Shown here: positions 262-5,597 of the stretch, piece by piece
Layout: each line of letters begins with the position of its first letter
Numbering within the stretch: position 1 is the stretch's first letter
NCBI GenBank assembly: GCA_027489895.1
Contig: JAIXZD010000071.1
Location: 1 to 35,419 of the forward strand
Direction of reading: 5' to 3'
DNA length: 35,419 nucleotides
DNA from: Planctomycetaceae bacterium
GTDB lineage: Bacteria; Planctomycetota; Planctomycetia; Planctomycetales; Planctomycetaceae
Made by a program: the position numbers and the translations under genes
The notes under the pieces: generated by a model
The model's input: the letters and a program-made list of their open reading frames with translations, nothing else
Databases searched by the model: none
What the model was told of the DNA's origin: nothing

Positions 262-398
262 GGCTCGACTGTCGGATGGGAGTCCGTCTTACTCCGAAGG
301 CTGCGGGTTCAAGTCCCGCCTGCGAAAGCAGTAGCTCAACGGGATAGAGCATCGGAATGGCCGCAAGGCCAGTTCTCTCGCCACCCCTTCGTCGGGCC
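262..398 (+). ncRNA. Y RNA 2, YrlA-like, with circularly permuted tRNA domain
   Basis: The terminal stem is GGCTCGAC (262-269) with GTCGGGCC (391-398), followed by CTTTTGTTT. Inside lies a tRNA core in permuted order: anticodon-stem 3' strand TCCGA (293-297), a 5-nt variable loop (298-302), T-stem GCGGG/CCCGC (303-307/315-319) with loop TTCAAGT, acceptor-like CTGC (320-323), a GAAA tetraloop, GCAG (328-331), T-A as positions 8-9, D-stem GCTC/GAGC (334-337/347-350) with a 9-nt loop, A as position 26, then TCGGA (352-356) pairing back to TCCGA. A hairpin TGGCC-GCAA-GGCCA (358-371) follows. GGGAG (278-282) can pair with CTCTC (375-379). Bacterial YrlA RNAs are known to bind the Ro60 orthologue Rsr and to mimic tRNA. 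The order and the neighbouring TROVE gene fit that family. It cannot be an ordinary tRNA: it has no 7-bp acceptor stem and no free 3' end at the acceptor. Ends are approximate. Confidence 0.82.
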
Positions 399-2803: not shown

Positions 2804-5597
2804 ATGCGTTCGCGATTCAGGTTGTCTGTTTTCCTCGTCGTCATCGGTTCGATGTTCGGTTGGCTCCTGGCTTCCGGTCGGATGACCGATGCGCTCGGCC
2901 AGGACAAGAAGGCCCCGCATGTAGCGGCAGACGGCGAGCAACTTCCCAAACCCGATCCAGAGTTCAAGGGGAAGATTGGCGATACGTACAGGGATTCGAC
3001 TCCAGACAATCCGCAGCCAGAGCAGGCTCCGAAAGGCGCGCCAAACGTGCTGCTCGTCCTGCTCGACGATGTCGGCTTCGGAATGTGTTCGACGTTCGGT
3101 GGACCGGTCCCCACGCCGCATCTCGATAAGCTCGCGAAGAACGGGCTGATTCATAACCAGTTCCACACGACCGCGCTTTGCAGTCCGACGCGGGCGGCTC
3201 TCCTGACTGGCCGCAACCATCACAGTTGCGGCACGGGCGTCATCATCGATGATGGGGACCGGTTATCCCGGCTACACGGGAATCATCCCGAAGAGCGCGT
3301 CCGTTGTGGCTCAAACACTGCGCGACAACGGCTACGCGACGGCCATGTTCGGCAAGGCACACAACACGCCTGAGCCGGAGATCAGCCCGGCCGGTCCGTT
3401 CCACAATTGGCCCACAGGTCAGGGGTTCGAGTACTTCTATGGCTTCAACCAAGGCGAAACGTAGCAGTTCTACCCCACGCTCTACCGCGACACCCGGCCC
3501 GTCGCCCAGCCCAGGTCCTCTGAACAGGGCTATCACTTCATGGCCGACATGACGGACGAGGCCATCGCCTGGACTCACAACGTCCGCGCCGCGAACCCCG
3601 GCAAGCCGTGGTTCAACTTCTTCAGCACGTCCAGGGTTCACGCCCCACACCAGCCGCCGAAGGAATACCGCGACAAGTACACGGGGAATTCTGATTATGG
3701 CTGGGACCGGCAACGCGAGTTGACCCACGCCAGGCAACTGGAAATCGGCATGATTCCCAAGGGGACCAGGCTGACTCCGCGGGACCCCGGCATCCCCACG
3801 TGGGACTCCCGTTCGGCGGATGAAAAGAAGGTCTATGCCCGCTTGGTATGGGGTTCGCGAAGTACTACGGCTTCCTCGGCGGAGAGACCGACCAGTGGGC
3901 ACCGTTGCTGGTACAGGACAACCACTTCATCGATACCCCCACGCGTCCTAGCTACCACCTGACCGAAGACCTGTGTGACCGCGCTCTTGCTGACATTCGC
4001 GACCAGCAGCAGGCGAATACCGGCCGACCGTTCTTCACCTATATTGCCCTGGGCGCGGCCCATGCCCCACTGCACGCCCCGAAGGAATTCATCGCAAAGT
4101 ACAAAGGCAAATTCGACCAGGGCTGGGACAAGGTGCAGGGAGACTTTCGAACGGCAAAAGAAGCTCGGCATTGTCCCTCAGGGGGCCGTCTAGCCACCGG
4201 CCAACCTCGGTGTGCAGGCATGGGCCAACCTGACTGCCGAGCAGAAGCAGGTCTACTGTCGGCTCCAGGAAGTCTTCGCGGGCTTCGTCGATCACGCAGA
4301 CCATCACCTCGGTCGTGTGTTCTCCGCGCTCGATGAAATGGGTATCCGCGACAACACTGTCATTGTGCTCGTTTCGGATAACGGGGCTTCCCAGAAAGGG
4401 TTGCAGAACGGCACCTTGAATACCGACCGCTATCGGAACTACTTCCCGGACACAGTCGAAGAAATGCTCAAGAACCTCGACGAGGCGGGCGGCCCGTCCA
4501 CGGACCCGCACTACCCGATGGGCTGGGCGATGGCGGGGAATGCACCGCTTAAGCGTTGGAAGCAGGACACGCATTCGGGCGGCAACACGGACCCATTCAT
4601 CATCTCATGGCCCGGGAAAATCAAAGATGGCGGCGCGATCCGCAATCAGTATCACCACGTCACCGATGTCGTCCCCACCATTCTGGAAGTGGCGGGGCTA
4701 CCCGCACCCACGTCCGTGAACGGGGTGAAGCAGATGCCGATGCATGGCGTCAGCATGGCCTACTCATTCACGGATAGCGCTGCCAGGACACGCAAGAGAG
4801 TACTGTATTTTGAGACGCTCGGAAGTCGGGCGATCTGGGCCGATGGCTGGACAGCGGTGACGTGGCACAAGACGGACACGCCGTGGGAAAACGACCAGTG
4901 GGAGCTGTATCACACGGACGTGGACTTCACCGAGGCCGACGACCTCGCCGCAAAGAACCCCGAGAAGTTGAAGGATTTGATCACGCTCTGGGAGGTCGAG
5001 GCGAAGAAGTACAATGTCTTTCCGCTCGATGACCGTCGGTACGAGCGCGTCGCCGACCCAACCCGAGCGGGCGCGGCGATCCCGAAGAAGCTATACACCT
5101 ATTACCCTGGCACGTCGATCCTGCACCCATTGGCCGCACCGCAGATTCTGGGCGTCGAACACACCATCACAGCACACGTCACGATCCCGGAAACTGGAGC
5201 CGATGGAGTACTCGCCTGCAGTGGCGGCGAGTTGGGCGGCTGGACACTGTTCCTCAAGGACGGAACGTTCCATTACGTCCACAATTACCTGAAGCTGGAT
5301 CAGTTCGCGGTGTCGTCCGCCGAGGTGGTACCGACTGGGCAACACACTCTGAGCGTGCATTTCACGCCAATCGAAAAGCACCTGAAGCCGGACTATTTCA
5401 TCGGCAACGTCACATTGTCAGTGGACGGCAAGCAAGTCGGGGAAATGAAGGGAAACAAGGTCGCCGGGCAGTACAGCGCGGTGACCGGTTACGGCTTACT
5501 CATCGGCCGAAACACCGGCACCCCAGTCAGCCACGAGTACAAGGCGCCGTTCGCGTTCACAGGAAAACTCGATAAGGTCACGATGGATCTGAAGTGA
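2804..5597 (+). pseudogene. Arylsulfatase pseudogene, probable fusion of two paralogues
   Basis: The relic of a secreted formylglycine-dependent sulfatase. The 5' end has an ATG after GGAAGGA (2788-2794), a signal peptide, the metal-binding [11 protein letters not shown] and the cysteine signature [13 protein letters not shown], whose Cys becomes formylglycine. Lesions are a frameshift near 3245, an in-frame TAG at 3462-3464, a junction with frameshift near 3840-3848, a frameshift near 4150, and TAG at 4191-4193. After the junction the homology jumps back: YGF-GET and HAP-PKE motifs occur twice (about 3437-3720 and 3857-4120). This fits deletion between two tandem sulfatase genes. The 3' part (4212-5597) is a long clean frame with the C-terminal sulfatase region and a beta-sandwich-like tail. 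With five lesions it is very unlikely to yield active enzyme. An internal start in the last frame could give a protein lacking the catalytic Cys. Confidence 0.88.

Follow-up and report, generated by a model that had tools for sequence, protein, structure and literature searches.

A circularly permuted class-I tRNA core in a probable YrlA-type Y RNA beside a planctomycete ro60 gene

The window analysed here (35,419 nucleotides, contig C498 of a Planctomycetaceae genome of 5.93 Mb that is fragmented into 575 contigs) carries a circularly permuted class-I tRNA core at positions 293-356, inside a Y RNA at 262-398. It is likely that 262-398 encodes a Y RNA of the YrlA type, with a Y stem for Ro60 and with 293-356 as an effector module that would tether a tRNA-recognising partner. 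Bacterial Y RNAs with tRNA-like effector domains have been described, and the tRNA mimicry of the core belongs to the known YrlA type, which it extends to planctomycetes; the array in which the core sits, with a companion resembling a segment of 23S rRNA, appears to be new. A sequence-only reading of this DNA had proposed a permuted order of tRNA elements here, and every one of them was found in its place:

293-297, + strand: anticodon-stem 3′ strand TCCGA (tRNA positions 39-43), read directly, pairing with 352-356
298-302, + strand: 5-nt variable loop AGGCT, AGGCU in RNA (tRNA positions 44-48), of which U48 would pair with A15
303-319, + strand: T arm with a 5-bp stem GCGGG/CCCGC (303-307/315-319)
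308-314, + strand: T loop TTCAAGT (U54 at 308, U55 at 309)
320-331, + strand: acceptor stub of 4 bp, CTGC/GCAG (320-323/328-331), closed by GAAA (324-327)
332-333, + strand: U8-A9
334-350, + strand: D arm with a 4-bp stem GCTC/GAGC (334-337/347-350); U8-A9 to A26 spans 332-351
338-346, + strand: 9-nt D loop AACGGGATA (AACGGGAUA in RNA, containing GG)
351, + strand: A26
352-356, + strand: anticodon-stem 5′ strand TCGGA (tRNA positions 27-31), pairing with 293-297

The structure prediction proposed along with that reading bears it out, as the minimum free energy fold of the isolated 64-mer is exactly this permuted-tRNA structure (−23.2 kcal/mol). The likeness was also scored with a covariance model built from real tRNAs only and including no Y RNAs, for which 27 class-I tRNAs of this genome were cut at the anticodon loop and their acceptor ends joined by GAAA. 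The best match of this model in the whole 5.9-Mb genome is exactly 293-356, end to end (64.8 bits, E = 5.6e-18), and the second-best match falls in another Y RNA, on contig C135 (49.5 bits). Because a model free of Y RNAs ranks 293-356 above every other place in the genome, the tRNA likeness is not due to chance. Two tandem real tRNA genes imitate the permuted order and score too, with neighbouring tRNA genes reaching up to about 30 bits in this genome and those near the rRNA operons of other genomes probably about 43 bits, so that the class-wide count of 92 of 198 genomes is only an upper bound.

Readings of the region as an ordinary tRNA were rejected: 293-356 does not form an unpermuted cloverleaf with a 7-bp acceptor and an anticodon loop, the Rfam tRNA model gives 18.2 bits against a cut-off of 29, and ARAGORN calls no tRNA there. 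A group II intron match at the same place as the core was discarded as well, its score being far under the Rfam cut-off. Permuted tRNA genes, in which the 3′ half precedes the 5′ half, occur in some red algae and archaea, and both the order of the halves and the near-tRNA sequence of the core would suit a gene of this kind that yields a working tRNA. The anatomy already contradicts this explanation, which we regard as next to impossible: there is no anticodon loop that could be joined, the 4-bp acceptor is closed by GAAA and offers no ends for processing, a Y stem is present with the Ro60 gene adjacent, and the genome already holds real tRNAs for 20 amino acids.

The core had also been thought to be drawn from a real elongator tRNA, whose gene was to be sought in the same genome. 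That comparison, made with its 42 tRNAs, identified no donor. The best match, tRNA-Arg(ACG), shares 42 of 52 core positions (81%; 22 of 25 in the D half alone) and differs in its T stem and in the order of its elements. On average, a real tRNA of this genome shares 81% identity with its nearest tRNA of another amino acid; since the resemblance to tRNA-Arg(ACG) is at this level, no recent donor is evident. The copy is close, as had been claimed, but not exceptionally so, ranking fourth among 35 homologues that score 37.7-70.9 bits with the permuted-tRNA model. Its oddities are the full 5-bp anticodon stem, where most homologues have 3 bp, and the 4-bp GAAA-capped acceptor, where most have an acceptor-like stem of 6-8 bp and a longer loop.

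The four helices covary across the 35 homologues, with 145 double-change cells against 38.7 ± 5.1 in shuffles, and 93.9% of the cells form standard pairs against 35-52% when the partners are slid; as the alignment was fitted to the model, these nested-pair counts lean towards it, whereas the tertiary 15-48 pair is independent of it. Pairing is nearly universal in the T, acceptor and D helices (100% in the T stem). The pairing of 293-297 with 352-356, on which the sequence-only reading had staked its case, gave a divided result: the inner three pairs of the anticodon stem are kept by compensatory change, but the outer two are paired in only 54% and 34% of the homologues, the window copy being among the few with all five. 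The Levitt pair 15-48, which lies outside the model structure, switches between G-C and A-U in 32 of the 35 homologues (18 G-C and 14 A-U, with one A-C, one A-A and one gap; Fisher p = 1.8e-8, or 5.6e-6 without near-duplicates), and it is G-C or A-U only in all 32 class-I tRNAs of this genome. U54, C56 and A58 are invariant (35/35), and U55 and the D-loop GG are each found in 34/35. This is good, though indirect, evidence that a tRNA elbow would form through contacts of G18G19 with U55C56 and the 15-48 pair; the 15-48 covariation upholds the earlier expectation of such a fold. Taken together, the helix covariation and the 15-48 switching point to the elbow as a feature under selection.

In the full 137-nt Y RNA, as calculated with ViennaRNA, 293-297 prefers another partner, the anticodon-stem pairs have a mean probability of 0.005, and forcing the tRNA core costs 2.7 kcal/mol (0.3 in locus L114 and 3.0 in L125), in a calculation that excludes Ro60 binding and tertiary contacts. 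The case for the anticodon stem is carried by conservation rather than by energy.

Judged by the Ro60 protein, the relatives of this genome are MAGs of planctomycetes, among which Planctomyces sp. DS3.3.33 and D1_MAG_00055 come nearest (90-91% identity). The orthologues in L114 and L125 have the same 64-nt core, with 2 of the 64 positions differing in each (97%), and the stretch that links the core to the Y stem is variable. The counterpart in L119 has a decayed core, in which compensatory changes nevertheless preserve an anticodon stem of 5 bp. A tRNA gene duplicated recently could also have left a neutral remnant in the array, which would agree with the tRNA arrays that adjoin Y arrays in relatives. 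We find such an origin barely credible, however, for a core that has no donor and is 81% identical to its nearest tRNA, like any two unrelated tRNAs, that is 97% conserved in two relatives with Ro60 proteins 90-91% identical, and whose compensatory changes and tertiary covariation across the 35 homologues already contradict neutrality.

The remainder of the Y RNA and the gene that follows it are composed as follows:

262-269, + strand: outer helix of the Y stem, 5′ strand GGCTCGAC, pairing with 391-398 (8 bp, read directly; recovered by the Y-unit census)
274-282, + strand: inner helix of the Y stem, 5′ strand GG[A]TGGGAG with A276 bulged, pairing with 375-382 (paired by eye, not the minimum free energy fold)
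358-371, + strand: accessory hairpin UGGCC-GCAA-GGCCA between tRNA core and Y stem (in the predicted fold and also in the core-forced fold)
375-382, + strand: inner helix of the Y stem, 3′ strand CTCTCGCC, read directly
391-398, + strand: outer helix of the Y stem, 3′ strand GTCGGGCC, read directly
421-2085, + strand: ro60/rsr gene, 554 aa, with TROVE (Pfam PF05731, E = 2.5e-11) and Ro60 vWA (PF25045, vWA_Ro60, E = 2.5e-16) domains

The terminal Y stem thus has an internal loop and an inner helix, a layout that the units of the array share. One pair of the inner helix is C-G in the C135 unit and G-C in the window, and the accessory hairpin is nearly identical in L114 and L125. The Ro60 gene begins 22 nt downstream of the Y stem. 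The Rfam YrlA model matches 273-390 with 38.2 bits (E = 5.8e-7), in keeping with the earlier assignment to the YrlA kind but below the curated cut-off of 69 bits (RF02553). Because nearly all planctomycete homologues that were scanned also lie below this cut-off, with only one copy, in L018, above it, such scores may reflect the breadth of the model rather than the absence of the fold. A further match of the YrlA model, G000:C11, was set aside as an ordinary tRNA.

Like Salmonella YrlA (RF02553; PDB 6CU1), the window Y RNA has a Y stem at its ends, followed by T arm, acceptor-like hairpin and D arm; it adjoins a Ro60 (rsr) gene, and its loops are identical to tRNA loops. Unlike YrlA, it has a full 5-bp anticodon stem, a 5-nt variable loop and nucleotide 26, an acceptor cut to 4 bp with GAAA, the extra hairpin at 358-371, and a place in an array with other modules. 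With the tRNA-like domain of tmRNA it shares the use of a tRNA elbow by a non-tRNA; it differs in having neither a tag ORF nor an acceptor with CCA, and ARAGORN finds no tmRNA in the window. The Y RNA of Deinococcus radiodurans and its RYPER complex (Ro60-Y RNA-PNPase) are matched by the Ro60 neighbour, the Y stem and a PNPase gene.

We propose the following model for this Y RNA, whose anatomy, conservation and neighbourhood are established by the results above. Its ends form the Y stem, which would be held by the neighbouring Ro60 protein. In the effector module, the class-I tRNA core is open at its anticodon loop to admit the Y stem, and a GAAA tetraloop caps its acceptor end. By analogy with the YrlA system, the Y RNA would tether Ro60 to a tRNA-recognising partner, which in other bacteria is the exonuclease PNPase, with TruB and Dus modifying the mimic; the tRNA-like module would then direct or gate the decay of structured RNA that is linked to Ro60. 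It would be one of several interchangeable effector modules that this lineage has in the array beside ro60. The YrlA/RYPER mechanism has been published (PMC8394870; PMC7790460), and a review covers YrlA tRNA mimicry, the Ro60-Y-PNPase machine and the modification of YrlA by DusA and TruB (PMC8394870). The genome encodes TruB, Dus, PNPase and RtcB, and the core is a plausible substrate of TruB and Dus, as had been suggested, both families being present and YrlA being modified by DusA and TruB (PMC8394870). RNase P, which had been named with them, is an unlikely partner because the 4-bp acceptor is capped and there is neither a leader nor a 3′ end. The tethering of PNPase is taken over from Deinococcus, and planctomycetes may differ in this respect.

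The module might instead be a decoy or competitor that, stabilised by Ro60, sequesters tRNA enzymes or an anticodon nuclease when the cell is under stress. Since the Y stem replaces the anticodon loop, the mimic cannot be cut there, and many Y arrays are preceded by tRNA gene arrays. Anticodon nucleases, however, usually read the very loop that the core is missing, and a tRNA decoy does not explain the 23S-like and T-arm-only modules of the same arrays. A competitive-inhibitor role has been proposed for YrlA (PMC7790460); for the module described here, we consider such a role improbable.

If the module tethers a partner, as we think likely, that partner may differ from PNPase. The companion Y RNA upstream is built as follows:

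22-199, + strand: companion Y RNA 1 with a module resembling H69-H71 of 23S rRNA
48-53, + strand: H69 3′ strand
53-65, + strand: CCAAAGGTAGCGA block
67-70/77-80, + strand: H71-like helix, with two mismatches in the window copy
156-161, + strand: H69 5′ strand

Y RNAs with this 23S-like module were found at the following places:

window, 22-199
L001 (contig C135), 2179-2356
L097, 2915-3081
L104, 2142-2304
L125, 4602-4779
L177-L181

The module shares H69-like and H71-like helices and up to 28 identical nucleotides with domain IV of 23S rRNA; this longest shared stretch, in L097, includes the H69 loop. Smith-Waterman comparisons of the 23S-like modules with 23S rRNA score 35-57, against maxima of 25-34 in 100 shuffles each. 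The 19-mer GACGGYCCTAAGGTAGCGA is present in the genomes of 26 of 59 relatives, and a reversed control pattern in none; every locus of the 19-mer that was opened lies inside a 23S gene or a Y RNA array. A pattern specific to the 23S-like module occurs in 24 of 397 genomes of the class, in several families. The H69-like helix changes in a compensatory manner, AGGAGC/GCUCCU in L177 and L180 replacing ACGGUC/GGCCGU, and is AGGAGC/GUUCUU in L178, while the CCTAAGGTAGCGA block stays unchanged in all three. The Rfam search of 1-450 reported no ribosomal match despite the 23S-like segment that this interval contains; the large LSU model can miss short fragments of rRNA.

In one form of the module (window, C135, L125 and others), the two strands of H69 have changed places, with GGCCGT (5′ strand) close to the 3′ end and ACGGTC (3′ strand) close to the 5′ end. 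The helix is therefore opened at its loop, where the Y stem enters, just as the Y stem is grafted into the tRNA mimic. Unlike H69-H71 of 23S rRNA, this form has its H69 strands at both ends, and the module lacks the AGUUCCU strand and is embedded in a Y RNA. With its two H71-like mismatches, the window copy of Y RNA 1 looks partly decayed, and the C135 copy is intact. We infer that the 23S-like module may have a role in ribosome or rRNA handling. A non-PNPase partner of the tRNA-like module, such as the ribosome or a ribosome-maturation factor, as the 23S-like companion might recruit, would fit the neighbouring copies of H69-H71 and the action of a Ro60 orthologue in 23S rRNA maturation in Deinococcus, as stated by the title of a paper that a review cites (PMC8394870). 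Each module could, however, have its own partner, and we hold this alternative to be unlikely, if worth keeping in mind.

With one genome carrying several Y RNAs of different modules, one of them copying 23S H69-H71, the locus matters more than the core. Our broader proposal is tentative, and we give it somewhat less than even chances: planctomycete Ro60 would use interchangeable, translation-mimicking Y RNAs, whose Y stem is grafted into the loop of the copied hairpin (anticodon or H69), to direct the Ro60 particle to different partners that process RNA or associate with the ribosome, within a cassette to which a tRNA gene array often belongs. If the modules are functional, what the effector domains of Y RNAs recognise could be tested directly through a comparison of the partners that two mimics have on one and the same Ro60. 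The open literature that we searched contained no description of 23S mimicry by Y RNAs or of tRNA arrays with Ro60, and a prior mention is possible.

At planctomycete ro60 loci the Y RNAs stand in arrays, often with tRNA gene arrays at their side; at other ro60 loci such Y RNA arrays reach seven units. More Y RNA units stand at the end of contig C135, and positions 1-229 of the window are 93% identical to C135 21091-21300 over about 210 bases at the contig ends, which represents either tandem duplication of the 23S-like Y RNA or an assembly break at the level of strains. The unit order in L125 (small unit, permuted tRNA, T-arm unit, unknown unit, 23S-like unit, permuted tRNA, ro60) fits C135 and C498 as neighbours, a join that is unproven. 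Arrays of tRNA genes lie directly upstream of the Y array and ro60 at five loci:

L125, 49-3877 (34 tRNA genes upstream of the Y array)
L119, 67-3758 (30 tRNA genes)
L123, 970-4090 (19 tRNA genes)
L122, 798-3799
L114, 1302-3319

Several of these upstream arrays end in tRNA-Cys. At about 1260-1310 of L001, an apparent remnant of a tRNA-Cys-like gene, at which ARAGORN calls no tRNA, precedes the Y array; relatives have an intact tRNA-Cys. Y units with a T arm and a long acceptor-like hairpin but no D arm (L001 1651-1741, L097 3388-3480, L125 4294-4392) are conserved between genomes. A possible fourth type of module, seen by eye, is a series of D-like, anticodon-like and T arms in unpermuted order (L122 4257-4367 and 4541-4669; L097 3099-3204). 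In L114, the stretch ATGGCCAACAAGTCGCTG at 4528-4545 resembles the start of ro60 (ATGGCCAACAAGTCCTTG in the window); it lies 3′ of the permuted-tRNA Y RNA, with another Y unit and the real ro60 downstream of it, and is possibly the trace of a duplication or recombination.
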